DNA of 33,644 nucleotides. Origin: a virus. Position 1 is the first letter of the stretch; every line of letters begins with the position of its first letter. The notes under the pieces were generated by a model. That model searched no databases. It had not been told where the DNA came from and saw only the letters and a program-made list of their open reading frames with translations. Shown one piece after another: positions 4,177 through 23,246 of this stretch. Location of the stretch: positions 1 through 33,644 of IMG/VR virus record IMGVR_UViG_3300042556_002952. One strand, given 5' to 3'. The translations under genes and the position numbers were made by a program.

Positions 4177-5376
4177 ATGGCAACCATCACCAAAGGCAAA
4201 ACCTTCGTAAACGGCGAACTCGTCACCCCTGCCAACCTCCACCAGATGGTCGATGCCGCCACCGTCGCCAACATTGTCAACGCCGACATCGCCTCAAATG
4301 CCGCCATCGCCGACACGAAGCTCGCCACCATTTCCACGGCAAACAAAGTCGCCCAATCTGCGGTTGCAAACCTCACGACCGACCTGGCTGGGAAAGCTGC
4401 TTCCTCGCACACGCACACGATTGCCAATGTGACGGGCCTGCAAACGGCGCTCGATGGCAAGCAGGCGTCTGGAAGCTATGCGCCTGCAACGGGTATCGCG
4501 CCAAGCGCCATCACTGGAACGGCGGTGGTGACGAGCGACCCGCGCTTGTCGGATGCCAGGACGGCTGTGGCGCACACCCACGACGACCGCTATTACACAG
4601 AGTCCGAGATGAACACTCTGCTTGCCGGTAAGCAGGCGTCTGGAAGCTACGCGCCAGCAACAGGTATCGCGCCAAGCGCCATCACTGGAACGGCCGTCAT
4701 CACGACCGACTCCCGCCTCTCGGATGCGAGGACGCCGACCACGCATACGCATGATGATCGTTACTACACAGAGACCGAGGTCAATAGCCTGCTCGCAGGC
4801 AAGCAAGCGTCTGGCTCTTATGCCGCTGCCACGCATACGCATTCCGCCAACGACATTACCAGTGGGACTCTTGCAAACGCCCGCACCACCGCCACGAGCA
4901 GTAATTTAATCAATACTATTGTAGCTCGTAATAATTTCGGTGGCATAGACATTGCTCTCATAACAGGCGTTTCGCCTGGGCCTAGTAGTGGAATATACAA
5001 TATAAATACATCGACAGGAACATACATTGGCGGAATTTTAACCAACAGCACAAACACAGGCGTCATTTATAGCACTAGCTCCGACCACCGGCTTAAAACC
5101 GACCTCGAAAAACTAACCGGCGCATTGGATCGCTTGTCGGCCTTGCCGGTCCATCGGTTCAAGTGGGTTGGCCATCCCGCCGCACCGAAAGTCGATGGCT
5201 TCCTAGCCCACGAAGCGCAGGCCGTTGTGCCCGAAGCCGTCACCGGCACCAAAGACGCCGTGGATGCAGACGGCAAACCCATCCATCAAGGCATCGACCA
5301 AAGCAAGCTCGTCCCCCTCCTCGTCGCCGCCGTGCAAGAACTCGCCGCCCGCGTCGCTGCCCTCGAAGCCAAATGA
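4177..5376 (+). CDS. Tail fibre / receptor-binding protein with S74 intramolecular chaperone
   Basis: A 399-residue protein. Residues 1-90 form the probable virion-attachment part, with His-Thr-His motifs. Three tandem 57-residue repeats follow (GKQASGSYAPATG, then HTHDDRYYTE), the third partial, typical of trimeric fibre shafts. A low-complexity Ser/Thr/Asn tip region comes next. The last ~100 residues form a peptidase S74 chaperone: S302-D-H-R-L-K307 keeps the Ser and Lys, five residues apart, needed for self-cleavage, and a C-terminal helix ends VAALEAK. In this family the chaperone guides trimer folding and then cuts itself off. The codons for the tip (about 4905-5070) are far more AT-rich than the rest. 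The gene overlaps the SET gene by ATGA. Confidence 0.9.
   Translation: MATITKGKTFVNGELVTPANLHQMVDAATVANIVNADIASNAAIADTKLATISTANKVAQSAVANLTTDLAGKAASSHTHTIANVTGLQTALDGKQASGSYAPATGIAPSAITGTAVVTSDPRLSDARTAVAHTHDDRYYTESEMNTLLAGKQASGSYAPATGIAPSAITGTAVITTDSRLSDARTPTTHTHDDRYYTETEVNSLLAGKQASGSYAAATHTHSANDITSGTLANARTTATSSNLINTIVARNNFGGIDIALITGVSPGPSSGIYNINTSTGTYIGGILTNSTNTGVIYSTSSDHRLKTDLEKLTGALDRLSALPVHRFKWVGHPAAPKVDGFLAHEAQAVVPEAVTGTKDAVDADGKPIHQGIDQSKLVPLLVAAVQELAARVAALEAK
4456..4850 (+). repeat. 171-bp tandem repeat in the fibre shaft
   Basis: Three units begin at 4456, 4627 and 4798, an exact period of 171 bp or 57 codons. The first two units are complete and nearly identical in protein; the third fades after about 50 bp. 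Such repeats can expand or contract by recombination and change shaft length. Confidence 0.85.
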
Positions 5377-5771
5377 CCCCCGCCCCCACCATGCTCCGCC
5401 CCGAGCCATACCACGCGACCAAGCTCGCCGTGCGCCGCTCCCCGTTGCACCGGTGGGGCGTCTTCGCCACGGCTCCCATCGCCAAGCACGAAGTGCTGGA
5501 AGAGGCCCCCTACGCCTGCGTGCCCAAGCGGCAACTCGCCAAAGCCCCTGCCTGCGAGACCTACAGCTACTACCTCGATGACGCCACTAGCATCCTCGGC
5601 TTCGGCCTCGCCCCCCTCTACAACCACCACGACACCCCCAACGCCTGCCATGAGATCGACCAAGTAAACGAACTCATGCGGCACTACGCCCTGCGCGACA
5701 TCGCCGCAGGCGAAGAGATCACCCTCAACTACGGCGCAGAAAACGCCAAGCACTTCTTAGAAAAGGAATAA
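5373..5771 (+). CDS. SET-domain protein (putative protein-lysine methyltransferase)
   Basis: A compact 132-residue SET domain. The signature parts appear in order: R27-W-G-V-F-A32 (S-adenosylmethionine contact), Y83-N-H-H-D-T-P-N90 (the N-H-x-x-x-P-N type motif) and E114-E-I-T-L-N-Y-G121 (E-x-x-x-x-Y catalytic end). Known SET enzymes methylate protein lysines. This one has no pre-SET or post-SET domain and is close to the minimal size. It begins at an ATG overlapping the fibre stop, a place where tail-fibre assembly factors often sit. The target could be a virion protein or a host protein; this is not shown by sequence. A second ATG at 5391 would remove six residues only. Confidence 0.85.
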   Translation: MTPAPTMLRPEPYHATKLAVRRSPLHRWGVFATAPIAKHEVLEEAPYACVPKRQLAKAPACETYSYYLDDATSILGFGLAPLYNHHDTPNACHEIDQVNELMRHYALRDIAAGEEITLNYGAENAKHFLEKE

Positions 5772-9739: not shown

Positions 9740-10789
9740 ATGGCCTCCCCCGCACAAAACGCTTTTGTAAATTCCGTGCCGCTTCCACGGCAGGCCAATC
9801 TCGACAACGACCAGGTTGTGCCGATCCCGGTGAACCCCTCTGCCGACGCTGATCCAAATAACATCATGCCCTTATCGGCAGCGTTTGATGCCGTCGATCC
9901 GGCCACCCAGCAACAACCGGTGGGCCAAGCCCTCGATGCCGTGTCGGGTCAAGACGACGAGCCTTTCGATGCCGTCGCCGCCCGGCTCGCCCAGGGAGCC
10001 CGCGTTCGCATCACCAGCCAAGAGCAATGGAATGCCCTCTCCCCGCATGAGAAGGAGGCGATCCGCGCCACCAAAGCCTCGGGCGGCAGCGTCAACGCCC
10101 GCGACGCTCTCCGCGTTTACCAAGACAGCGTAAAGCGTGCCCGCGCAACGCAAGTCCAGACCGTGACACTCAGCGATGGCCGCAAGGTGGATATGGTAAA
10201 TGGCACATATCCTCCAGCAGCCAAGCAGGCCGAACCGGTGAAAATGGAAATCAAGCAAGCCGAGGATGGCACGATGGTTATGATTGACCCGCTCACGGGC
10301 CGCAGCTTCCCGGCATGGAATGAAAACACCGGGGAAGCCGTTCGCGGCCCCGCGAAACTTTCCCCCGCGCAAGAGGAAAAAATCAAATTACTTCAACTAA
10401 ACAGCGAAGACAAAGGAGCCAGGTTGGCCGACCTGACGCGTTTTACAGAATCCGATTCTGTCCAATACAACGACGCTACCGGAGGCTATGAGCCTGCTGG
10501 TTTTTTTGGAGGGTCTAAAGTCAAAGATTTAAGGAAAGAAATCGAAACTGAAAAAGACAAATACGATAAGCAAATTGAAATGGCCCTGCGCCCCGTGAAC
10601 CGCTCCTCCAAATCCTCCCCCGCTCCCGCTGCCACGCCAGCGCCGACCCCTGCCACCCGCTCCGCCGCCCCTTCCCAAACTCCCCGCCCAAACCCCATGC
10701 CCACGCCTGAGAAATTCCAAGTCGGCAAACGCTACCGCGATGCCGCTGGCAATGTGAAAACCTACCGGGGCAACGGAGCTTGGGAATGA
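9740..10789 (+). CDS. Phage structural-module protein, function unknown
   Basis: A 349-residue protein. Residues 1-80 are Asp/Pro/Ala-rich and look disordered. A helical region with SPAQEEKIKLLQLNSEDKG and a lysine-rich coiled-coil end (KDLRKEIETEKDKYDKQIEM) follows. A Pro/Ala/Ser linker then leads to a short C-terminal motif, FQVGKRYRDAAGNVKTYRG, a pattern common at the ends of phage internal proteins. Its stop overlaps the next ATG. Function is not assigned; a scaffold, cargo or ejection partner of the giant protein downstream is possible. Confidence 0.6.
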   Translation: MASPAQNAFVNSVPLPRQANLDNDQVVPIPVNPSADADPNNIMPLSAAFDAVDPATQQQPVGQALDAVSGQDDEPFDAVAARLAQGARVRITSQEQWNALSPHEKEAIRATKASGGSVNARDALRVYQDSVKRARATQVQTVTLSDGRKVDMVNGTYPPAAKQAEPVKMEIKQAEDGTMVMIDPLTGRSFPAWNENTGEAVRGPAKLSPAQEEKIKLLQLNSEDKGARLADLTRFTESDSVQYNDATGGYEPAGFFGGSKVKDLRKEIETEKDKYDKQIEMALRPVNRSSKSSPAPAATPAPTPATRSAAPSQTPRPNPMPTPEKFQVGKRYRDAAGNVKTYRGNGAWE

Positions 10790-13700
10790 GTTTCGATCCC
10801 TCCACCGCCGTTCTCATCGAGGACGAACCGGCTGATTTCGAGGCCGCCTCCGCCGTGCCGGTGGAGGAGGAGCCGATGGGATTCGATCCCACCACCGCCG
10901 TTCTTGTCGAGGACGAGCCCGCCTTGCCCGCTGCCACGCCTTCGCCATTGCCCGCACCGAATCCCGAACTCGATGCCGCCCGCGATGCCGGGATGCGCGA
11001 GGATCAACTTATCCGCGAGGAGGGGATTTTCCCCGAGGGCAGCCAATCTTGGAAAGTCCTCGATGGCCGCATCTACATCGACCCCGCCCGCTACAACTCC
11101 GCCGTCGAGAATCTGTGGTCCGCCGGGGTGATCGACTCCGACTCCTACACCCAGCTCCAGAAAGGCACCGTGGATCAATGGGACGAAGCCTCCCGCACCG
11201 TGATCCCCTCGGTGGAGAAAGCCACCGCCGCCCGCCGCGACTTGGAGCGCCGCGCCGGAGCTTTCCCCGAAGCCAAAGCCGCCGCCTCCGGCCTGCTCAA
11301 AGGAGCCATGCAAACCGGAGCCGCCATCGTGGGAGGGGGAGCCGCCGCCACAGCCACCGGCTTTACTGGACCGGGGGCCATCGCCGTTGGCATTGGCGCA
11401 GGCACCGCCGCCGCGCTCGGCACCGGAGCCGCCTACGACAAGCTCCTCGAACTCTCCTCCAAGGAAAGCGACCTGCTTGATAGCTTCTACGCCGCGAACC
11501 AACTCAAGCCCGGCTACAACACCGGCGGCCAGCTCGTCTCGATCCTCGCCCCCACGCCCGTTTCCATCTCCCGCCTGGCGAATGCCGCCAATCTCATCCA
11601 AGCCGAGAAAGGCAGCGCCGCCGCCGCCAAGTTTGTCACCGGAGCCTTCGGCGCAGGCGCAGGCATCGGCGTGGCTACCGACGCCACGATCCAAGTCGGC
11701 AACCTCGGCCTCGATAAACTCCTGCACCAAGACATCAGCAAGGAAGTGGCGATGGAGCATTTCCGCCAGACCGGCGAACAACTCGCCCCCCGCCCGCAAT
11801 ACAACCCCGCCAGCACCGGCATCTCCGCCATCTTCGGCGGGCTCGGCGCGGGCCTCGGGGTGAAGGCTCGTAATAAAACCTACGCCCCCGAGGAATTGGT
11901 GACGCTTGAATCCCAGGTCAAAACTGGCCGCGCCACCCGCCAAGAGGCCGAGGACTACCGAGTCATGCGCCAAGCGGTGCAAACCCTCCGCGCCGACGAA
12001 CGCCTCCTCGACGCCCAAGCCATCCGCCGCGCCACCGTGGACGCCGCAGGCTTCCGTTTCCTCGATACCACCGAGATCATCAACCCCCGCTTCCAGCGCG
12101 AGCTTTTGGCTTACGCCGCCGAGAATCCCCAAGCCGCCGTGCCGCTTTCTGGAAGCCCCGCCGCCTACACCGGCCAAGCCTTCATCAACCGAGGCGGCCC
12201 CGCGCCAGCCTTCCAAGGCGGCACCAACGCCCTGCCCGGCCCCGAGGGCGTGCCTGCTTTACCAGGGCCCGCCGCCGAGCCGTCGAACATCCTACCCTTC
12301 GACCCCACCACCGCCACGCTGGTTGACGACATTCCCCCAACCGCCTCTGCTCCCGCAGCAAGCGCACCAACAGCGCCTGAACTGACAGGCTCACCCGAAA
12401 TGATCGCCGGGGAGGGGGCCACGCCTTCGCCGCCCGCCAAGCCCAAGCGCAAGTTCCCCCGCATCTCCTACGATCCCGGCACATTTCCTATCCTTTCCGC
12501 GCTTCAAGAAAGCCCGATGCGCCCAAGCTCTAGCGGCACAGCGGGCGGAGAGAATGATTTTTGGAACGAAATCCGCCGCACCGGCAGGCACTTCGCCGAG
12601 ACCCACCGCTCGACAGGCCAACCCTACGATGTCCGCGCCCAAGAACTTTTCGAGCGAGGTTTATTGCCCGACCCCTCGCCGGATACTTTGTTCAATGCCT
12701 ATATGTCGGAGGTCAATAGCTACCGCCAAATCAAGGATGGCGACCCCACCGAGGCCGAGCAAAATAAAATCCAGAAGCAATACGACACCTTCACTAAGCA
12801 AGCCCTCGACCCCTCGAAGACAAAGAAATCCAAACTGCAACCGGTCACGACCAGCGACCTCAAGATCGGCGACCGCGTGAAGATCGCAGACGAATGGCTC
12901 AATGTGAAAGCCATCGACCCCGAGACCTTCACCATTTCCCTGGAAGACGGCGCAAAGTTTGGCCTCCAGAAAGTGGAAGACGGCACGCAAATGTGGGTGC
13001 AGGAAACCGAAATCTCCCCCTCACAGGATGATGGCTTCTCATTTCTGAATGAGACCGACACCGCGCCCGCCGCACCCCCGCAGGCCGAGCCCTTCTCAGG
13101 CAACCTTTTTACCCCTGGCGAAATGCCATTCAGCCTCGACCGCCCGCTGGATGACGAGAGCTTAAAGCTGCAACGCGAAGCCGACGAAGCCAACCGCCAG
13201 CAAGCGGCCTACGAGGAAGCGCAGAAAAGCCAAACCAACATGGCCTTTGCCGATGCCGGTCCCCCCGCCAAATCCTCCCGAGGCGGCAAGACCATGGCCG
13301 ACGCCGGGCCGCCCGCGCCGCTCCTCTCCACCACCGCCACGCTCCCTAAGCCCCCGCTCGAAACCTACAACGACGCCCAGGTCTTCGCCGACTTCCCCGA
13401 TGCGGTTGGCGTGGTGCGTTCCACAAAGGGCAGCGGCTGGACGATGCCTCTGATCCTCGGTGGCACGGACAAGGTGCCCGTCATGGAAATGCCCGAGCTG
13501 GTGGAAATGGTGCGCTCCCTCACCGGCAACGACCCGAAGTTGAAACGAATGCCCAAAGCCCTCGGCACATTCAACCCCGGCTCCGGCATCATCACGCTCC
13601 GCCCCGACCTCTTCCAAAACGAAGCCAGCGCCATGATGACCTTTGCCCACGAGATCGGCCACCTCGTGAGCTGGATGGATGAGCGCAACATTAAGCTCGG

Positions 13701-16700
13701 CAACCTCGGCGGCCACATCATGAATGTGGGCAACTATCTCAAGAGCACCTTTCCAATAACGCCCGGCGCAGGCCCGGCCCTCACCACTGCCGACCGCCGC
13801 AAACTCCAAGCCCAAGCCAAAAGCGAGAATCCTTCCGATCCCGACGCCCGCACCACCCGCTACCGTGAGCTTGTGCAGCAGACCATGGACACTCGGAACC
13901 TTGGTGCTGTCTCCGAGAAGCAAGGCGGCTACTCGCCGAACATCCGCGAAGAACTCATCAACCTATCCGAATGGTGGAAGCCCTTCAGCTATGACGATGC
14001 CAAGGATAGCTATGTGGACTACCGCCACAGCGCCGAAGAACTCTACGCCGACGCCATCAGCGTGCTCTTCAACTCCCCAGCGGACCTCCAAGCCCGCGCC
14101 CCCGTATTTTACAAAGCCTTCTGGAACTACGCCGACGCTCGCCCGCAGGTAAAAGCCAGCATCTTTGAAATCCAAAACCGCATCCTCATGGGCCGCGATG
14201 CCGTGCTGGATAAGCGCCTCGCCCGCGACTTGGAATCCTTTAAGGCCGGGGCCGAGGTTTTCGTTGGCAAGCAGGCCGCCGCTGCCGCCCGCCGCGCCAG
14301 CCTCACGGGCTGGTGGGAAAACCTCAAAGACCAATACTGGAACCGCTACCAACCTCTCATCGAATCCGCCGCCAAGGCCCGCGCCGCTGGCACCATCACC
14401 AAGGCGGAGGAGGACGGCATCCGCTGGCTTACCGAGGAGCACCCGCTGGCCGATAGCAAGCTCCAGCTCAAGCTCGCCGACATTGGCCGCCTCTACCAAA
14501 GCCTCGATGCGGCAGGCGTGCCGCGTGATTATTTCGGCGTCTGGCTCAAGCATCACCGCATCGCCAACGAACGCTACGAAGTCACCGAGAAAATTAAGGG
14601 AATGGATCTCACGGTGGAGAAAGGCCGCGCCGTGATGGCCAACCCTGGCGGCGAGACCGCCCGCACCTCCGCCGAAATGCTCGCCTCTCTCCAGCAGCGC
14701 CTCGGCCCTGAGAAAACCGCCGCCCTCGAATCCGCCGTCGCGGGATTCCGCGATGTTGTTTTCACCATCATGGAGGATGCGAACGACGCCGGGCTTTTCT
14801 CTGCCGACCTCTGGGAAATCATCAGCGCCAACCGCGACAACTACGCCGCCTTCACCCCGCTGGAATATGTGCAGGAGTATCTGCCCTCAGCGATCCGCAA
14901 GCAGGTGGGAACCTTTAAGGAAATCGCCGACCCGCTCCAGCAAACGGTGCTTAAATCCATCAGCATCCACCGCGCCGCGCAGAACAACCGATTCAAACGC
15001 GCCGCCGTGGAGGCCATCCGCCAGACCGCGCCGGAGCTGGTGAAGCCCGCGCCCATGAAATACAACGGCAAAGCCATGGTGCCGCAGGAGTCACAGGAAA
15101 CTGGCCTCTCCTTGGTGCAATGGAAGGACGATGGCCAACTCACCGGCGTTCATCTCCCCGACCGCTACGCCCGCATGTGGGAGGATCAATCCCCCGCCGA
15201 GCGCGACGCCATTCTCAAGCTCCTCTCGACGGGATTCCAACGCCTCGTCTATGGCGCGATCATCCGCTACAACCCGGCCTTCCAGCTTTTCATGTCGCCC
15301 GCCCGCGACCTTCAACGATCCATCACCAATATGCCTGGCGGCATCCAAGGCCGCGCCCGTTTCCTCCAGCGCCTCCTCGATCCCGAAACCTGGGGAGCCT
15401 CCGTGGAATGGGCGAGGGGAGACATCGGCAAGACCGAACTCCTCCGCGAGATGATTGAGAACGCCGCCACAGGCGGACCGCACAGCGCCTTCGGTGGCCG
15501 CATGGGGAGCGACGACGACAGCCTCGACGCCATCCTCCGCAAGTATCACCTGCAAGATCAGCAATCCCGAAATGGTTTTGTCCGCGCCCTCATGGCCCCG
15601 CTCAAAGGCATCGAGTTTGCCGGGCAAGTCCTGCAACTCCTACCCAAAGCCGCCGCCTACAAAGTCTTGGTCAAAGATACCGGCATCCCCGCCCCGCAAG
15701 CCGCCAACACCATCCGCAACCACATCGGCATCCCGAACTACTACAAGAAAGGCCGCCACGCCCAAGCCGCAGGTGCGCTGGTGCCGTTTCTCAACATCTT
15801 CCTCCGCTCCTACGACTCGCTGCAACGCAACCTCCGAGGAGCCGAGCGCAACATGGGCGGCAAGGAATGGTGGCTGGCCTGGGCGCTTACCGGCGGCGGC
15901 CTCATCGCCGTCATGCAAACCCTCGCCAAAGAAGGACTCTTCGGCGAAGACCTCAAAAAGCTCTACTCCCGCGTGCCTACTTGGGACATGACGAACTTTG
16001 CCGTGCTGCCTCTCGGCGAAGTCCCCACCGGAGAGACCGGCGGCAAGACCGTCTATGCCCGCTTGCCGCAAGATGAAGGGCTGCGCGTCATCAACGGCGT
16101 CGTGAGTAAAATGCTCACCTCGGCCATCCGCTCCGCTAAAGGCGATCCCTCCGCGCCGCAACTCGGCGAGGTTTTCGCAGGCATCAGCTCCCAAGTCCCC
16201 GGCACCAACACCATCGTCGAACTCGGCCAGAACTGGACAACTTTCCTGGCGGGCCGCAATCCGCGTGATGATTTCCGCAACCGCTACATCCTCTCCGACG
16301 ACCAATGGCTCGCCGGGGGATGGGAGGCCACCAAGCCCATGCTCGGCTGGACGCTGGAGCAAACCGGCATCACCAACTTTTTCACTTACGATCCCAAGGC
16401 CGACACGCTCACCGAAACAACCCTCAGCGCCGCGCCTATATTGAATCGGTTCATCAAAATCAGCGACCGAGGCGTTTATCAAAGCGAAGCCAAGGCCGAC
16501 GAAGCCGACAAGCGCGACATGGCCAAGGTCCGACTCTCGCTCCCCGACCAGGTGAACGGCCTCCGCACCGAATACAACTACCTCAAAAACCGAGGCGAGA
16601 ACCGCAGCGACCGCGAAACTTTGCGCTACTACGAACTCGGCCAATGGTATCGCACCTACCGGCAAGCCATGGACGAGGTGGAAACCAACATGGAGTTTGG

Positions 16701-16770
16701 CAACCGCGCCGCCGCGCAATCCGCCATCCGTGGCCTAGTCCAAGACAGCAAACTCTACAAAGCCCGCTAA
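10786..16770 (+). CDS. Giant polyvalent phage protein with zinc-protease motif
   Basis: A 1994-residue protein. Near the N-terminus are repeats of the F-D-P-[ST]-T-A-x-L-[IV]-E-D-E-P type; a related copy (FDPTTATLVDDIP) recurs near residue 505. Two or three Gly/Ala membrane-like segments lie between about 165 and 365. A metalloprotease motif H955-E-I-G-H959 follows, with E1084-E1085 (AEELYADAIS) as likely third ligand. From about 1505 (ARDLQRSITNMPGG) to 1680 (VPFLNIFLRSYDSLQRN) it resembles the large polyvalent protein associated LPD38-type region. This layout is typical of proteins packaged in virions and injected. The ATG overlaps the preceding stop by ATGA; it ends tail-to-tail with the integrase, sharing 3 bases. 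Confidence 0.75.
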   Translation: MSFDPSTAVLIEDEPADFEAASAVPVEEEPMGFDPTTAVLVEDEPALPAATPSPLPAPNPELDAARDAGMREDQLIREEGIFPEGSQSWKVLDGRIYIDPARYNSAVENLWSAGVIDSDSYTQLQKGTVDQWDEASRTVIPSVEKATAARRDLERRAGAFPEAKAAASGLLKGAMQTGAAIVGGGAAATATGFTGPGAIAVGIGAGTAAALGTGAAYDKLLELSSKESDLLDSFYAANQLKPGYNTGGQLVSILAPTPVSISRLANAANLIQAEKGSAAAAKFVTGAFGAGAGIGVATDATIQVGNLGLDKLLHQDISKEVAMEHFRQTGEQLAPRPQYNPASTGISAIFGGLGAGLGVKARNKTYAPEELVTLESQVKTGRATRQEAEDYRVMRQAVQTLRADERLLDAQAIRRATVDAAGFRFLDTTEIINPRFQRELLAYAAENPQAAVPLSGSPAAYTGQAFINRGGPAPAFQGGTNALPGPEGVPALPGPAAEPSNILPFDPTTATLVDDIPPTASAPAASAPTAPELTGSPEMIAGEGATPSPPAKPKRKFPRISYDPGTFPILSALQESPMRPSSSGTAGGENDFWNEIRRTGRHFAETHRSTGQPYDVRAQELFERGLLPDPSPDTLFNAYMSEVNSYRQIKDGDPTEAEQNKIQKQYDTFTKQALDPSKTKKSKLQPVTTSDLKIGDRVKIADEWLNVKAIDPETFTISLEDGAKFGLQKVEDGTQMWVQETEISPSQDDGFSFLNETDTAPAAPPQAEPFSGNLFTPGEMPFSLDRPLDDESLKLQREADEANRQQAAYEEAQKSQTNMAFADAGPPAKSSRGGKTMADAGPPAPLLSTTATLPKPPLETYNDAQVFADFPDAVGVVRSTKGSGWTMPLILGGTDKVPVMEMPELVEMVRSLTGNDPKLKRMPKALGTFNPGSGIITLRPDLFQNEASAMMTFAHEIGHLVSWMDERNIKLGNLGGHIMNVGNYLKSTFPITPGAGPALTTADRRKLQAQAKSENPSDPDARTTRYRELVQQTMDTRNLGAVSEKQGGYSPNIREELINLSEWWKPFSYDDAKDSYVDYRHSAEELYADAISVLFNSPADLQARAPVFYKAFWNYADARPQVKASIFEIQNRILMGRDAVLDKRLARDLESFKAGAEVFVGKQAAAAARRASLTGWWENLKDQYWNRYQPLIESAAKARAAGTITKAEEDGIRWLTEEHPLADSKLQLKLADIGRLYQSLDAAGVPRDYFGVWLKHHRIANERYEVTEKIKGMDLTVEKGRAVMANPGGETARTSAEMLASLQQRLGPEKTAALESAVAGFRDVVFTIMEDANDAGLFSADLWEIISANRDNYAAFTPLEYVQEYLPSAIRKQVGTFKEIADPLQQTVLKSISIHRAAQNNRFKRAAVEAIRQTAPELVKPAPMKYNGKAMVPQESQETGLSLVQWKDDGQLTGVHLPDRYARMWEDQSPAERDAILKLLSTGFQRLVYGAIIRYNPAFQLFMSPARDLQRSITNMPGGIQGRARFLQRLLDPETWGASVEWARGDIGKTELLREMIENAATGGPHSAFGGRMGSDDDSLDAILRKYHLQDQQSRNGFVRALMAPLKGIEFAGQVLQLLPKAAAYKVLVKDTGIPAPQAANTIRNHIGIPNYYKKGRHAQAAGALVPFLNIFLRSYDSLQRNLRGAERNMGGKEWWLAWALTGGGLIAVMQTLAKEGLFGEDLKKLYSRVPTWDMTNFAVLPLGEVPTGETGGKTVYARLPQDEGLRVINGVVSKMLTSAIRSAKGDPSAPQLGEVFAGISSQVPGTNTIVELGQNWTTFLAGRNPRDDFRNRYILSDDQWLAGGWEATKPMLGWTLEQTGITNFFTYDPKADTLTETTLSAAPILNRFIKISDRGVYQSEAKADEADKRDMAKVRLSLPDQVNGLRTEYNYLKNRGENRSDRETLRYYELGQWYRTYRQAMDEVETNMEFGNRAAAQSAIRGLVQDSKLYKAR

Positions 16771-17861
16771 AGCGGCTTCGGCCTTTCCAGCAGGGCGTGG
16801 TAGTGCTTCTCGACGACATCCATCGAGTCGCGCAGCAGCTTTGCCGCAACCTCCAGGCCGTCCCGCTGGGCGATCCGGCTGCCGTATTCCTTTCTCAAAT
16901 TATAGGCTCCCTTCGCGCCATCGGGGATGAAGCGCCGCACAAATTCGTTGATGCCATCGTGCGTCAGGTCGTCGGCCTCGGTCTTGTGAGCGCGTGGAAC
17001 GACATACTCGCCCTCGCCAAGCGCGGCCTGGATCAACCGCATCAGGCGGAGATTCGCAGGCACGCGGCCATACTTTCCATTTTTACTGTGGAAGTCGTGC
17101 CGTTTGATGAGAACCAAATCCACGCCGCGCTTGTTGGGTAGCCAATCCACCCAATCCCACCGGAGCTTGGCCACCTCGGAGTTTCGCAATCCTGCCCGCC
17201 GCATCAGCCAGTAAATCGCCCACACGCGGGGATTTTCCCGCCGCAGGGGAATCCTCGCCGCCGCATCCATCCGCCGCAGGATGTCGCGGGGGATAGGCTC
17301 GTAGCTTTGATCCTGGGCTTTTCCGCCCGAGACTTTCCAGAACTCCGTCAAATCCGGCAGCGTCAAATCCGCGAAGAGGTGCATCCGCCGCTGGGCCACC
17401 ACTTGCTTGACCGTCTGCACACTCGACCTCACGCCCGCCTCGGTGCAGCCCGCCGCCATCCGCGCCGTGATCCAGCCTCGCAAGACCGGAGCCGTGAGCA
17501 CCAAGTGAGAGGACACGCCGCGCCAATCCGCCTTGCCGCTGGCCTCGGCGACATACTTGGCAAAGCCGCTCGCAGCCTTCACCGCCGATCCGCCAGGGCC
17601 GTGGAGCTTGAACCGGTCCACGATCTCCCCAGCCGTGGCATAGCCTGGACGCCGGACGACCTTCGCCAGCTCCTCCTCGTTGCCCGAGCGCAATCCCTCG
17701 GAAATCTTTTTAGCCTTCGCCTCCGCCGCCGCCCGACCGGCTTTGTTGTTGATCGAAACCCCCGTCGCCTTCATGACCCGCTTGCCGTCAAGCTGCACGC
17801 GGTAATACCAGCCATTGCGGGATTCTAACCAGTAAACCGAAATCTCGTTGTGTTTTCTCAT
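16767..17861 (-). CDS. int: Tyrosine recombinase / phage integrase
   Basis: A 364-residue protein from ATG 17861. The N-terminal part is a probable arm-binding domain, followed by a core-binding domain. The catalytic domain has R-A-G-L-R-N-S-E-V (box I Arg), a likely Lys in NGKYGR, Y320-N-L-R323 in the place of H-x-x-R, and nucleophile Y354 in EKHYHAL. The box II His is Tyr, and the usual H/W position appears to be Asp, so the active site is divergent. A GTG at 17897 would add twelve residues, but they would be encoded by the arm-site repeats, so 17861 is favoured. It ends convergent with the giant virion gene and is the last gene of the minus-strand block. Confidence 0.88.
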   Translation of the reverse strand: MRKHNEISVYWLESRNGWYYRVQLDGKRVMKATGVSINNKAGRAAAEAKAKKISEGLRSGNEEELAKVVRRPGYATAGEIVDRFKLHGPGGSAVKAASGFAKYVAEASGKADWRGVSSHLVLTAPVLRGWITARMAAGCTEAGVRSSVQTVKQVVAQRRMHLFADLTLPDLTEFWKVSGGKAQDQSYEPIPRDILRRMDAAARIPLRRENPRVWAIYWLMRRAGLRNSEVAKLRWDWVDWLPNKRGVDLVLIKRHDFHSKNGKYGRVPANLRLMRLIQAALGEGEYVVPRAHKTEADDLTHDGINEFVRRFIPDGAKGAYNLRKEYGSRIAQRDGLEVAAKLLRDSMDVVEKHYHALLERPKPL

Positions 17862-17863
17862 AC

Positions 17864-18120
17864 GGTCGCCACTTTTGTCCGCCACTTTGTCCACCACTTC
17901 AATCTGAAATTCTTTGGATGGGGTAAACGCATTAGACAGTCAAAAGCTGGAAGTTTCTGACAAGTTACCTAGGGAAACCGAAGATGTCCGCCACTTTGAG
18001 GGGTAGAGTGGGGTGCAGCCGGAAAGACTCGAACTTTCAACCTTCTGATCCGTAGTTTCTGAATCTATCATTATGTTTCAATAATTTAAGTTGTGCGTCC
18101 GCCACTTTGTCCGCCACTTT
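17864..18120. other. Phage attachment site (attP-like) with core and arm sites
   Basis: Direct repeats of GTCCGCCACTTT flank a tRNA-like core. Left arm: 17864-17900 holds three tandem copies (10/12, 12/12 and 10/12 matches) and 17986-17997 one perfect copy. Right arm: 18097-18120 holds two perfect tandem copies. The core at 18014-18055 is on the minus strand and reads as the 3' part of a tRNA. The arrangement, next to the integrase start, matches the P and P' arms of lambda-like attP sites. The arm copies at 17877-17900 overlap the upstream GTG option of integrase. Confidence 0.8.
18014..18055 (-). other. tRNA-Arg(ACG)-like 3' segment, attP core
   Basis: On the minus strand the segment gives anticodon loop CTACGGA (anticodon ACG, arginine), a 3' anticodon stem, a T arm of GAAAG-TTCGAGT-CTTTC and the 3' acceptor strand CGGCTGC plus A. 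The next bases are CCC rather than CCA. The 5' stem and D arm are absent, so it is not a gene. Integrating phages often carry such a tRNA 3' end so that insertion rebuilds the host tRNA; here the likely target is a tRNA-Arg gene. Confidence 0.75.
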
Positions 18121-19492: not shown

Positions 19493-20137
19493 TCATTTGA
19501 AAACCTGATCGTGGCGGAGGATTTCGGCGTCGAGGTGGTAGGCTAGATTTGTGGCGCTGCCGAAATTTAACAGCGTGGCGGCTGTGGCGTGGGTCCAGTC
19601 GATTTGGGCGGGTTCGCCGAGCATGGCCGGGACTAGGTTCAGAAATTTCCCGGCTTTTTTGACCAGGCAAATTTCGTTGATGCTGCGCGGTCGGTGCGTT
19701 TCCATCGTGGAAAGATATTTTTCGGCAAGTTCGGCGGGGTTTTCTATTTCGGTTTGTTCGCGGGTGCTGGCATCGTCCCACACGGCGAGGTCGTGGACCT
19801 TGGCGGGGACTTCGCCGGTAAATGTATCATGGTTTTGGCCAAGGTCGGTGAACTGAGCTTCCCAGTTGTCGCCCCAGACGCGGAGGCCTGCGGCGTTGAG
19901 TTCGGCGTTGAACCCTGCGGAGATCAGGGCGGTGTGTGCGGATGTTTTGGTTTTCATTTTTTGGGTTGGTTTGGTTGGTTTTTGGGTTGGTGTCAATAGT
20001 TGGTCAAATTCCACATCAGCGATGCCCTGGGCGTCGCTGGTGGTGCAGCCTTCGGCTTCGAGTTCTTCGACTCGGGCGACATAGGCGGCGTGCTGCGGGC
20101 TGGCTTCGTGGCAGGCTGGTAGTGCTGTGGTGCTCAT
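19493..20137 (-). CDS. Small-gene-operon protein, possibly two fused genes
   Basis: A 214-residue frame. Residues 1-49 (MSTTALPACHEASPQHAAYV, then TSDAQGIADVEFDQLL) look like a small phage protein of known style. Residues 50-60 are a Pro/Thr/Lys/Gln linker matching a C/A-rich leader. Residue 61 is a Met (ATG 19957) with the same AAAAAATGAAAACC context as the starts at 19473 and 20314. The rest is a 154-residue domain (HTALISAGFNAEL) with no recognised family. It may be one protein, or two genes joined in frame by stop loss, or one gene with an internal start. Confidence 0.6.
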   Translation of the reverse strand: MSTTALPACHEASPQHAAYVARVEELEAEGCTTSDAQGIADVEFDQLLTPTQKPTKPTQKMKTKTSAHTALISAGFNAELNAAGLRVWGDNWEAQFTDLGQNHDTFTGEVPAKVHDLAVWDDASTREQTEIENPAELAEKYLSTMETHRPRSINEICLVKKAGKFLNLVPAMLGEPAQIDWTHATAATLLNFGSATNLAYHLDAEILRHDQVFK

Positions 20138-20143
20138 TTCGGT

Positions 20144-20314
20144 TCAAAGGTTGGGGTTGAGTTTGCAGGCGAGGAGGCCGAGGGCGGCGAATGCTGCCGC
20201 TCCGGCGAGGTAGGCGGCTGGGCCGTGGGCCAGGGTGAAGGCCGCGCCAAGGGCGAGGCTGCTGAGTGATGCCCAGGCGAGAGCTTGGGCGAGGGCGTGT
20301 TTTGTGGTTTTCAT
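20144..20314 (-). CDS. Small Ala-rich membrane protein, 56 aa
   Basis: A 56-residue protein. Residues about 8-52 (ALAQALAWASLSSLALGAAF, then AYLAGAAAFAALGLLA) form one or two hydrophobic segments, so it is a membrane protein. ATG 20314 follows hairpin repeat copy B by about six bases. Function unknown; a holin-like role is possible but its place in the repressor block is against that. Confidence 0.6.
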   Translation of the reverse strand: MKTTKHALAQALAWASLSSLALGAAFTLAHGPAAYLAGAAAFAALGLLACKLNPNL

Positions 20315-20320
20315 TATTTA

Positions 20321-20348
20321 GGTGCCGGAAGCCGTCCGGCGCGGGTTG
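20321..20348 (-). repeat. GC-rich hairpin repeat copy B before a start codon
   Basis: The 28 bases are identical to copy A at 18523-18550. The stem GCCGGA/TCCGGC lies seven to twenty bases before ATG 20314. The leader beyond it is rich in CCAACC. Confidence 0.8.
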
Positions 20349-20377
20349 GTGGTTGGGTTGTTCTGGGGGGAACGGGA

Positions 20378-21244
20378 TCAGGCGGTTTTGAGCTTTTTCA
20401 TTTCCTCGGCCAAGGTCCAGAGGGCTCGGTTGATGTTGGTGTTTTGGTCGATGCCGGAGATTTCCCTGGTGCGGCGGCGGGCGACGAGGTGGCCGCGTTC
20501 GTTGCGTTGGTTGTAGCGTAGGCCGCCACGGATGAGGTTTTCTTGAACGGCGTTGAGGGTGTTCCACATGGTGGGGGCTGCGTCTTCATGGCGGCGGAGG
20601 GTGAGAACCTGATCGGCGGTGACGGGCTTGAGCTTGTCGGGGTCGTCGTATTTGGCGACGAGGGCGGCGCGGGCGAAGGCTTGGCGCTCGCCTTCGGTGA
20701 GTTGGAGGCTGGCCATGGATCGGACGCTATCGGAAACCTCGGGCAGCCGGTCGAGGATGCTGACGCAGCCGTCAAGGACTTGGCCCTGGATATCTCCCTT
20801 GTGGGGGACGCGGATGTCGTCGATGAGGTTTTGAGCCACGACCATGCCGTTTCCGCAAATGAGGCGGAAGACTCCGGCCATGAGGCGGTAGGCTGAGGTG
20901 CCGTCGTGGGAGTTCAGCAGAACGATCTCGTTATGAGTGCCGCCGACTTCGAGGGGCTGGCTGTCGTGGCGGAGGCGGATGAGGTGCTTGGTGAAGCCGC
21001 GTTTGTCTTCGTCGCGGCTGCCGCCCTGCATTACGGAGTAGGGGCGAAATCCTTCTCGGGCGAGGCCGGTGAGGATTTGGCTGGTGGGAATGTAGCTGTA
21101 TTTTTCGGACCGGCTGCCGTGGGCCTGCTCGGCGAATACCGAGGGGGCAATCTGGCGGAGTTGGTCGAATGGAATGGAGCCGCTGCGGCTGGTGTAGTTG
21201 ATGGCTCCGTTGCTGCGTGTCCTAGCGAATCGTGTGATGTTCAT
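20378..21244 (-). CDS. DUF932-family phage/plasmid protein
   Basis: A 288-residue protein. The stretch from IPFDQLRQIAPSVF through EKYSYIPTSQI to GFRPYSVMQ and the LMAGVFRLICGNGM part match the DUF932 family seen in phages and plasmids. The biochemical role of DUF932 is not established. It is preceded by hairpin copy C and a possible promoter at 21333-21360, and its C-terminus is charged (WTLAEEMKKLKTA). Confidence 0.85.
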   Translation of the reverse strand: MNITRFARTRSNGAINYTSRSGSIPFDQLRQIAPSVFAEQAHGSRSEKYSYIPTSQILTGLAREGFRPYSVMQGGSRDEDKRGFTKHLIRLRHDSQPLEVGGTHNEIVLLNSHDGTSAYRLMAGVFRLICGNGMVVAQNLIDDIRVPHKGDIQGQVLDGCVSILDRLPEVSDSVRSMASLQLTEGERQAFARAALVAKYDDPDKLKPVTADQVLTLRRHEDAAPTMWNTLNAVQENLIRGGLRYNQRNERGHLVARRRTREISGIDQNTNINRALWTLAEEMKKLKTA

Positions 21245-21252
21245 TTTTTTCT

Positions 21253-21275
21253 GTGCCGGATACCGACCGGCGCGG
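21253..21275 (-). repeat. GC-rich hairpin repeat copy C before a start codon
   Basis: The stem is GCCGG/CCGGC with a seven-base loop, ten bases before ATG 21244. It is diverged in the loop from copies A and B but keeps the stem and the flanking GCGG and GTGCC. Confidence 0.75.
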
Positions 21276-21332
21276 TTTTTTTGGTTCGAGGTGCCGCCTC
21301 GGCGGGCGGGCCGTTTGTGGCCTGCGGGATTA

Positions 21333-21360
21333 AATCTACGGAGAAATAAAATGAGTGCAA
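21333..21360 (-). promoter_or_regulatory. Possible sigma70-type promoter (weak)
   Basis: On the minus strand TTGCAC, a 16-base spacer and TAGATT could serve as -35 and -10 in front of the DUF932 gene. The matches are weak (3-4 of 6 each) and the region is AT-rich, so this is a candidate only. Confidence 0.3.
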
Positions 21361-21441
21361 GGATATTTTATTTTTTGCTGAAACTTTTTTTTGAGATTTT
21401 TGTTGACAGGCGCGGAGGCCGATGGAATGGGGCTCGGCGGG

Positions 21442-21861
21442 TCAGCGGGTTTTTTTCTGCGTGAGAGTTTTTGCGTCGGCTCGGAGGGAATCGAGGAGGG
21501 GATTGGATGCGCCAGGGCAGACGATGGCGATGTGCTGCGGGGGCATTTCGGAGGGTTGGAAAAGCTCAAAGGCGCAAGCTCCGTTTGGCCAGCGGGCTCG
21601 GAAGTAGTGGGTGAGGGCTCCGGTCTCGGGCCAGCGTGGGCGGCCTGCGAAAGTGGTGTCGGGGCGGATTTTTAAGACGACGGGGGCAGCGCCAAGAACA
21701 TTCCCGTTCCAATCGACGATCCCGCCGGGTGGGCTGGTCTCGATGAGGATTTCCATGGGGGCATGGGCGGCGATGGCGCGGGGCGCAAAGGTTTCGCGGG
21801 GGTCGGGCTGGGTGGCGCAGCCGGTGAGAGCTAGAGCTAGGAAATAGGCGGCTGGGCGCAT
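21442..21861 (-). CDS. PEGA-domain lipoprotein
   Basis: A 139-residue protein. Residues 1-14 are a signal peptide and L12-T-G-C15 a lipobox, so the mature protein would be lipid-anchored on Cys15. Residues about 37-65 (IETSPPGGIVDWNGNVLGAA) match the PEGA pattern. A second beta-rich part contains two Cys (GACAF, IVCPG). It starts four bases after the upstream membrane protein stop and is in the repressor operon, so it may be made in lysogens. Superinfection exclusion is a reasonable inference; nothing proves it. Confidence 0.8.
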   Translation of the reverse strand: MRPAAYFLALALTGCATQPDPRETFAPRAIAAHAPMEILIETSPPGGIVDWNGNVLGAAPVVLKIRPDTTFAGRPRWPETGALTHYFRARWPNGACAFELFQPSEMPPQHIAIVCPGASNPLLDSLRADAKTLTQKKTR

Positions 21862-21865
21862 GGTT

Positions 21866-22180
21866 TTATTTTTTCTCGGGGAAGAAATAAATGTAACCGA
21901 GAAGGGGCAGGGTGATGAGGAGCTGCAAATCTTGGTAGGCGTGGGCGGCGATCCAGGCGATGAAGGTGGCGGCCATGCAGGAAAGGGCGAGGCGTTGCTT
22001 TTTTGTGAGGGTGGCGGGCATTTGCTCGCGGAATACCTGGGCGAGGCCGAGGAGGATCAAGGCAAAACCGGCGTGCCAGGTGCGTTCGGCTGGGAGGAGC
22101 GTGCCGGGTGGCGGAAATTCGTTGAGGGTGGGCAGGAATGAGGCGGCGATAAGGATGCAGCCGGGAATGAGGATTTTCAT
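21866..22180 (-). CDS. Small polytopic membrane protein
   Basis: A 104-residue protein with three hydrophobic segments (about 1-17, 38-52, and 66-98 which may be two). ATG 22180 is chosen because it follows the repressor stop by four bases and begins the hydrophobic part. The upstream in-frame extension would be hydrophilic and overlaps the repressor gene. Function unknown; see the lipoprotein for a suggested shared role. Confidence 0.65.
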   Translation of the reverse strand: MKILIPGCILIAASFLPTLNEFPPPGTLLPAERTWHAGFALILLGLAQVFREQMPATLTKKQRLALSCMAATFIAWIAAHAYQDLQLLITLPLLGYIYFFPEKK

Positions 22181-22184
22181 GGGT

Positions 22185-22577
22185 TTATTTCGCAGATTTC
22201 CGCCCGGTGCCCTTCTGGTAGCGAGTCGGGGTTTTCGCTGTTTTCGACCCACCAGCGGATTTGTCGGATGGATCGTGGATCGAGTCCCCATGGGCCTCGG
22301 AGGGTGTTGTCTTGTCGTTCAAATGAACGCGAGATAAAGGCGCATGATTGGGAAATAATTTTTCTTTGAGGTAGGTTTCAAGGTTGCGCATGTCGGCCTC
22401 GGTGAGGGCGCGGTTGCCGTTCGCTCGGTAGGTGCGGACGAACCATTCGCAGGCCTGCTCGACGACATTGTTGCGGGTGATGTTCAGGCCGGTATTTGAG
22501 GCAATTTCGTCGAGCAGGGCGATGACCTCCTCGGGGAGTCGAATCGAAAAGTTGCGTTTGGTTTTTTCCTCTTTCAC
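22185..22577 (-). CDS. Ribbon-helix-helix repressor-like protein
   Basis: A 130-residue protein from GTG 22577; TTG 22586 would add three residues. RNFSIRLPEEVIALLDEIAS and the following NVVEQACEWFV form a CopG/Arc-type ribbon-helix-helix. The long C-terminal tail is basic and Ser/Thr-rich (KTAKTPTRYQKGTGRKSAK). It is divergent from a second RHH gene at 22659, with a palindrome and direct repeats between them, so it is the likely lysogeny repressor. The family normally binds DNA as a dimer with its beta ribbon. Confidence 0.75.
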   Translation of the reverse strand: MKEEKTKRNFSIRLPEEVIALLDEIASNTGLNITRNNVVEQACEWFVRTYRANGNRALTEADMRNLETYLKEKLFPNHAPLSRVHLNDKTTPSEAHGDSIHDPSDKSAGGSKTAKTPTRYQKGTGRKSAK

Positions 22578-22586
22578 AGGTTGCAA

Positions 22587-22658
22587 TGTAACACAAATAA
22601 ATTTTCTGCAATTTTTTTGTTGCTGGTTCGGTGAATTTGTAACATAAATTCACCCGCA
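22587..22658. promoter_or_regulatory. Divergent switch region: palindromic operator and promoter
   Basis: A perfect 9-bp inverted repeat GGTGAATTT-N7-AAATTCACC lies at 22630-22654. Its centre holds TAACAT (22640-22645), a -10-like box 17 bases from TTGTTG for the plus gene, so a bound repressor would block polymerase. Direct repeats TGTAACACAAAT (22587-22598) and TGTAACATAAAT (22638-22649) lie 51 bp apart, one by each start. The region is AT-rich against GC-rich neighbours. Confidence 0.7.
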
Positions 22659-22805
22659 ATGAAAACGATCAGCATTCGATTGCCAGCAGAACTTCACCGG
22701 GAAATCGCCCGGATGGCCGATGAACAGGGCCTCAAGCCCGGACAGGTGATTCGCTCACTACTCCTTCGCATGGTGAAATCCAAACAACAGGAGGTGGCAA
22801 TATGA
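22659..22805 (+). CDS. Second ribbon-helix-helix protein, 48 aa (Cro-like role possible)
   Basis: A 48-residue protein. MKTISIRLPAELHREIARMA and GQVIRSLLLRMV follow the RHH layout and share the S-I-R-L-P start with the opposite repressor. The predicted transcript leader is only about six bases. It would be the first rightward gene, so it is a Cro-like or autoregulatory candidate. It overlaps the next gene by ATGA. Confidence 0.75.
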   Translation: MKTISIRLPAELHREIARMADEQGLKPGQVIRSLLLRMVKSKQQEVAI

Positions 22806-22948
22806 GCCGCCTTTTTTTATGCCGGGCGGTCGATCCGTTCACCGGACCTTTTGGGGACTATGTGAGGGCTTCGAGCCGGGAGGCTGCGCGGGCGCGGTTT
22901 TTTGAAATTTTCGGACTTCGGCCTTTTTCCGTGGAGGTGGAGAAATGA
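22802..22948 (+). CDS. Small unknown early protein, 48 aa
   Basis: A 48-residue protein (MSRLFLCRAVDPFTGPFGDY) with a helix from about 25 to 36. Both ends are ATGA-coupled, which supports its translation. No family recognised. Confidence 0.55.
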   Translation: MSRLFLCRAVDPFTGPFGDYVRASSREAARARFFEIFGLRPFSVEVEK

Positions 22949-23142
22949 GCGGCCTTTATACAATCAGACACGAGCAGGGCGCATGGGAAGTGGTGCTTTC
23001 GCATTGCGTCAAGGTTTGCTGGACCAAGGCTGCTGCCAAATTTTGGGCGGACGCCTGGAACGAAGGCCGGAACCCGCTTCCCGAGGAAATTGCCGATGCG
23101 TTGTCCCGCGATTGGCCGAAGGTCAAGGAGGGCGGAAAATGA
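22945..23142 (+). CDS. Small unknown early protein, 65 aa
   Basis: A 65-residue protein with two beta strands (YTIRHEQGAWEVVLSHC) followed by a helix (TKAAAKFWADAWN). It is ATGA-coupled on both sides. Function unknown. Confidence 0.55.
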   Translation: MSGLYTIRHEQGAWEVVLSHCVKVCWTKAAAKFWADAWNEGRNPLPEEIADALSRDWPKVKEGGK

Positions 23143-23246
23143 GCGGGGCGGATTTTTTACGGTTGGCCGGGTATGCGTGGGAGTTTGCCTGGGCAATCAG
23201 TCCGGCGCTTTTTTTGGCGGGGTTGACCTGGAGGGTCTCCCGATGA
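23139..23246 (+). CDS. Very small membrane protein, 35 aa
   Basis: A 35-residue protein. GYAWEFAWAISPALFLAGLT is a probable membrane segment. Start and stop are each shared with a neighbour by ATGA. Its shortness lowers certainty; coupling is the main support. Confidence 0.45.
   Translation: MSGADFLRLAGYAWEFAWAISPALFLAGLTWRVSR

Follow-up and report, generated by a model that had tools for sequence, protein, structure and literature searches.

A putative RHH/RHH immunity switch and a constant lipoprotein, a candidate superinfection exclusion protein, in Verrucomicrobiota-linked temperate phages

Introduction

Envelope proteins encoded directly behind a phage repressor raise the question of what they would do for a prophage, and of whether they are kept there as a unit. 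The locus considered here lies in an IMG/VR record that corresponds to the complete window (the whole stretch of DNA that was analysed, 33,644 bases). A preliminary description had recognized in it an RHH repressor gene, a polytopic membrane protein and a PEGA lipoprotein, and had suggested that the latter two, as envelope genes of the repressor operon, would be expressed in lysogens and could block superinfection. The features referred to below are the following:

16767..17897, minus strand: tyrosine integrase (phrog_1 at E 4.5e-14; Pfam Phage_integrase under its cut-off)
21442..21861, minus strand: constant lipoprotein of 139 aa, with lipobox LTGC (Cys15) and a PEGA-like beta-sandwich at residues 36-114
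21866..22180, minus strand: optional membrane protein (MEMB) of 104 aa, with four hydrophobic segments
22185..22586, minus strand: RHH repressor gene, starting at TTG 22586 or at GTG 22577 (the start chosen in the preliminary description), with ribbon RNFSIRLP
22587..22598, plus strand: operator-like repeat TGTAACACAAAT, at the start of the repressor gene
22630..22654, no strand assigned: operator-like inverted repeat GGTGAATTT / AAATTCACC with a 7-nt centre, before the divergent RHH gene (8 of 500 shuffles gave one as long)
22638..22649, plus strand: operator-like repeat TGTAACATAAAT, the second copy, within the inverted repeat
22659..22805, plus strand: divergent second RHH gene (rhh2) of 48 aa, in a Cro-like place

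Phage type and host

The plus strand of the window codes for a terminase, a DnaB-like helicase, a replication initiator, a tail fibre and a very large virion-type protein, and the lysogeny strand on the minus side carries the cassette at its head and the integrase as its final gene. The presence of an integrase on the cassette strand indicates that the window is a temperate phage. The late gene cluster also includes a SET-domain protein (5373-5771; Pfam SET, E 2.2e-13).

No match to the lipoprotein and the RHH protein was obtained among annotated phage records. One contig with the cassette, L048, belongs to a Verrucomicrobia MAG, and a search of 387 Verrucomicrobiota genomes returned six lipoprotein matches at E<=0.001, of which two are convincing (E 6e-52 and 1.5e-43) and the other four partial (E 5e-5 to 9e-4). 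As prophages integrated between host flanks were not observed, the link to a Verrucomicrobiota host is modest; the hosts are taken to be uncultured bacteria of a freshwater type.

Organization of the cassette

The three genes of the cassette all lie on the minus strand, separated by two gaps of 4 nt each (22181-22184 and 21862-21865), an order and spacing that had been given correctly to the base. The terms under which the envelope proteins had been introduced also hold: the membrane protein is indeed polytopic, with hydrophobic segments at residues 3-19, 34-50, 64-80 and 85-101, and the lipobox is clean. The domain names RHH and PEGA are weak for the window proteins taken singly, both of which fall below the Pfam cut-offs, but are supported by their relatives. 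The window repressor scores 16.5 bits against the RHH_1 cut-off of 20.5 and matches phrog_876, a transcriptional repressor family, at E 2.8e-4, and a relative from repressor class rep3 exceeds the RHH_1 cut-off (23.7 bits). The window lipoprotein scores 13.9 bits against the PEGA cut-off of 20.8, and all 36 aligned lipoproteins match PEGA at E<=1, the best at 0.0012; on these scores the protein is PEGA-like and is not assigned to PEGA.

A simple scan of positions 20100-23200 revealed no sigma-70 promoter-like site, and the claim of co-transcription therefore rests on spacing. Judging from gene order, spacing and the sites described below, we consider it highly likely that the three genes form a repressor-side operon with a divergent RHH/RHH switch. 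The genes downstream of the repressor would, from this anatomy, ride on its transcript and be on in the prophage state.

The divergent RHH/RHH switch

Repressors at this position fall into seven classes over 56 loci (RHH, 14 loci; rep2, 11; rep3, 9; rep4, 2; rep5, 5; rep6, 4; rep7, 11). A pattern search located a second small RHH-like gene opposite the repressor in 49 of the 56 (it was not found in 7), and throughout these 49 loci each repressor class is paired with a single partner cluster, the two genes facing each other across operator-like sites that are palindromic or repeated. Within the 72 nt that separate the window repressor gene from rhh2 lie an inverted repeat of 9 bp and TGTAACA(C/T)AAAT in two copies; across the window, the 14-mer pattern of these sites occurs at these two places only, the expected number being 0.01.

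Within the RHH class, the sites vary with the residues of the ribbon. RNFSIR is accompanied by TGTTACA in both sites in five of five loci (the window, L050, L069, L091 and L098), TQFSVR by TGATTCA or TGATACA in another five of five (L051, L062, L092, L097 and L099), and VQFS(I/V)R by a third site type in four loci (L048 and L100-L102); the 14 loci of this class being related, the link is a pattern and does not amount to 14 independent tests. The partner gene occurs as two haplotypes, and because each of them is found with both the first and the second site types, the sites track the repressor ribbon and not the partner. Long inverted repeats, sought in 16 loci, stood out in the window, L051, L069, L056, L059, L067 and L049, and none rose above background in L062, L050, L100, L064, L063, L057, L082, L078 and L048; palindromy is not general, and the link between ribbon and site therefore rests on shared words. 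The repressors of L097 and L098 differ at 7 of their first 15 residues and at 1 of the other 117, a distribution that resembles a swap of specificity through recombination.

On these data, the RHH protein very probably reads the spacer sites. In the proposed mechanism, the repressor would recognize the two repeated sites between its own gene and rhh2, close the divergent early operon and set the immunity class. No description of an RHH/RHH pair as the main immunity switch was found in the literature searched.

Two further observations concern the same region. A CAACAAAAAAATT-like word, at 22610-22624 in the window, recurs between the two divergent genes in most repressor classes, and is perhaps a shared promoter element. 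In addition, unrelated RHH domains carry in many loci a common low-complexity C-terminal tail (SPAKTPIRYQ, for example), which may represent a recombination joint between modules.

Turnover of immunity classes and constancy of the lipoprotein

The lipoprotein query matched 43 viral loci, and a query built from a 36-row alignment matched 60 viral contigs; since contigs found in this manner contain the lipoprotein by selection, its constancy was counted from exo and int anchors. Among 58 exo-anchored loci, 21 show no repressor (19 end too early, and L159 and L161 are distant, with 32% exo) and 6 more end directly behind it; the 36 int-anchored loci include 5 that stop short of the place. Where the place is visible, the lipoprotein is present in 31 of 31 exo-anchored and in 31 of 31 int-anchored loci, jointly 48 of 48 contigs, the overlap between the two sets having been counted by contig name.

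The lipoprotein tree (53 rows) requires 22 changes of repressor class and the exo tree (39 rows) 18, the minimum being 6, and in two sets of phages the exo proteins are identical but the repressor class differs. On the evidence of these trees, repressor classes jump among near-identical phages and the lipoprotein stays. That it is kept while the immunity class turns over fits a shared defence against heteroimmune kin.

Constancy also bears on the possibility that the operon serves lysogenic conversion without exclusion, the prophage altering the envelope to the benefit of the host (in stress, grazing or surface properties) in the manner for which Bor of lambda is the model. A conversion gene is expected to come and go, and the lipoprotein is retained in every visible contig across swapped repressors. 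Nevertheless, a place in the repressor operon is equally fitting for conversion, and two further facts lean the same way: the lipoprotein is independent of the type of virion protein encoded nearby, and a relative of it (L200, 1336-2205) is found in a Verrucomicrobiota MAG contig that has no RHH cassette. Conversion is, in our estimation, possible but unlikely. The genes after the lipoprotein relative in L200 are, as we read them by eye from the sequence, presumably DUF262- and DUF1016-like.

The independence from virion proteins emerged at the other end of the lysogeny strand, where two unrelated giant virion-type proteins of about 2000 aa adjoin the integrase (10780-16770 in the window; 9180-14939 in L173). 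The second type is accompanied by lipoproteins 87-92% identical to that of the window (L166, L168 and L173), and a tie between the lipoprotein and the giant protein next to int was rejected, near-identical lipoproteins being found with both types. This would be unexpected if the lipoprotein blocked that protein specifically; its target might instead be a receptor or a different step of entry, or its action might not concern phages.

The optional membrane protein

The preliminary description knew of no system with this exact pair of envelope proteins. The pair is present in the window; it is not a stable unit, the membrane gene being absent or replaced in most relatives. The membrane-protein query matched 3 viral loci. 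A membrane gene occurs in 22 of the 57 loci in which the sequence preceding the lipoprotein can be seen, and the other 35 carry none of the families recognized. These are six unrelated families (MEMB, 6 loci; the others 6, 5, 2, 1 and 2), so that a fixed membrane-lipoprotein pair is ruled out. The pair does occur beside other repressors, MEMB and the lipoprotein standing together behind the unrelated classes RHH, rep3, rep4 and rep5. Because membrane families are optional and shared across repressor classes, the pair first described is one of several assemblies, and the membrane protein could be an optional, exchangeable helper or a second exclusion factor. Imm-like or holin identities were considered for the membrane proteins and rejected, no notable Pfam or PHROG match having been obtained.

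The same distribution weakens a toxin-antitoxin interpretation, in which the RHH protein would be an antitoxin and the small membrane protein its toxin. RHH proteins are frequently antitoxins, and weak matches to antitoxin families were seen; however, no membrane gene stands behind the RHH gene in those 35 loci, no toxin gene is fixed, a single membrane family follows unrelated RHH classes, and the repeated sites lie in a divergent region shared with a second RHH gene. We regard such a module as very improbable.

All 22 membrane genes end within 9 nt of the lipoprotein start or overlap it. In many loci that lack one, the gap between repressor and lipoprotein is 25-143 nt (values of 370 nt in L065 and 408 nt in L083 are artefacts, caused by a repressor stop read in the wrong frame, the ORF lists giving 52 and 90 nt). 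Such gaps would leave room for a promoter, and hence for a lipoprotein acting early in infection from its own promoter and not in lysogens, keeping out second virions or sparing receptors, as modelled by Llp of T5. Two facts argue against this scheme, which we consider quite unlikely: spacing is tight in the window and wherever a membrane gene is present, and the cassette shares the strand of the repressor and not that of the early and late genes. In L029, L064 and other loci without a membrane gene, CCACCAG-type heptamer repeats lie between repressor and lipoprotein, just before the lipoprotein start.

Nature of the lipoprotein

The lipid-bearing Cys is invariant in 36 of 36 aligned lipoproteins, as is much of the core from P35 to P116. 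Median pairwise dN/dS is 0.34 (834 pairs of 60 sequences, the pairs not being independent); in the same phages, exo stands at 0.15, int at 0.19 and DUF932 at 0.14. The lipoprotein is under purifying selection that is looser than that on housekeeping genes and loosest in the tail (residues 117-139). MEMB has a median dN/dS of 0.27 (6 pairs), and by these values for the lipoprotein and the membrane protein the cassette genes are real. In L060 and L061 (3300042111_000226 and 3300042141_000196), the lipoprotein frame is broken near 8001, signal and lipobox lying in one frame and the core in another; both, like L096, which is truncated, were treated separately or excluded from trees.

AlphaFold2 predicts a beta-sandwich at residues 36-114, with a mean pLDDT of about 90 across much of that stretch. 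Neither PDB nor BFVD returned a fold match at E<=0.001, and a PDB sequence search yielded nothing, its one match being at E 0.85. VIA-align reached a best Z of 6.0 (rmsd 3.9, 76 aligned), with many transthyretin/carboxypeptidase-type sandwiches at Z of about 4, likenesses between predicted and known structures that imply no function. The literature searched held no description of the protein. After export and lipidation at Cys15, it would form a small beta-sandwich anchored in the envelope.

A role in lysis, as a spanin-type lipoprotein, is suggested by a match to phrog_456, an Rz-like spanin, at E 0.033. This match covers residues 5-46 only, that is, signal and lipobox, and the gene is on the wrong strand and in the wrong operon for a spanin, with a conserved beta-sandwich core unlike a short or coiled-coil spanin; this role is extremely unlikely.

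Comparison with known exclusion systems

The window proteins showed no homology to known exclusion protein families or PADLOC models (PHROGs, Pfam, NCBIfam and PADLOC). Ltp of Streptococcus thermophilus phage TP-J34 is transcribed from the prophage and blocks DNA injection, and in the lysogeny module of that phage ltp is listed ahead of a putative metallo-proteinase and the crh repressor, with cro on the opposite strand (PMC3952083). The window lipoprotein resembles Ltp in being a lipobox lipoprotein encoded on the repressor strand, between repressor and integrase. It differs in having no Sie-family match (in comparisons with database profiles), in its PEGA-like core and in the Gram-negative type host of its phage; the TP-J34 switch is of the HTH-type CI/Cro kind, whereas that of the window is RHH/RHH.

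The lactococcal proteins Sie2009 and SieF7/2AB are presented as small membrane-associated proteins coded between integrase and repressor, one sie system consisting of two genes (PMC7693887). The window cassette has the same position; however, the description consulted names no lipoprotein there (PMC7693887), and no homology was found in the window. By database profiles, the window lipoprotein thus appears unrelated in sequence to Ltp or to lactococcal Sie. Exclusion is proposed because the lipoprotein is kept across immunity classes and because ltp and the sie genes occupy the same position, between integrase and repressor.

SieA of P22 is a small polytopic membrane protein with three segments, expressed from the prophage of a short-tailed phage, that occurs as three sequence types less than 30% identical and excludes via ejection proteins (PMC10883804). 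MEMB is likewise small and polytopic, but has four segments and gave no homology match; SieA lies in the immI/ant region, outside the repressor transcript, and is without a lipoprotein partner.

The RHH fold is also that of Mnt and Arc. These two small repressors control one region of P22, immI (PMC2629481). There they govern an antirepressor, the main immunity repressor being C2, whereas in the window an RHH pair occupies the place of CI and Cro.

A proposed lysogeny operon and its implications

The expectation that envelope genes in the repressor operon would protect the lysogen is partly supported: operon position, the integrase, the operator-like sites and the constancy of the lipoprotein speak for it, whereas a fixed pair is not supported. 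By analogy, an RHH/RHH switch with a constant envelope protein most likely points to exclusion of the Ltp/Sie kind, and we predict, with roughly even confidence, that the lipoprotein is a superinfection exclusion protein. It would keep related phages from entering, also where a different immunity class places them beyond the reach of the repressor.

The complete picture is put forward tentatively: a group of uncultured, Verrucomicrobiota-linked temperate phages would combine a two-RHH switch, in at least seven classes with private immunity, with a universal, hitherto undescribed exclusion lipoprotein that stops heteroimmune kin, tuned by exchangeable membrane partners. If this is true, these phages would provide a natural series in which the immunity class is free and the candidate exclusion protein fixed, so that two layers of prophage protection could be separated. 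The lipoprotein would then represent a new family of Sie lipoproteins, in a phylum of which few phages are in culture, and the switch would be one for lysogeny in which RHH proteins take both the CI and the Cro places and specificity changes through a few ribbon residues.
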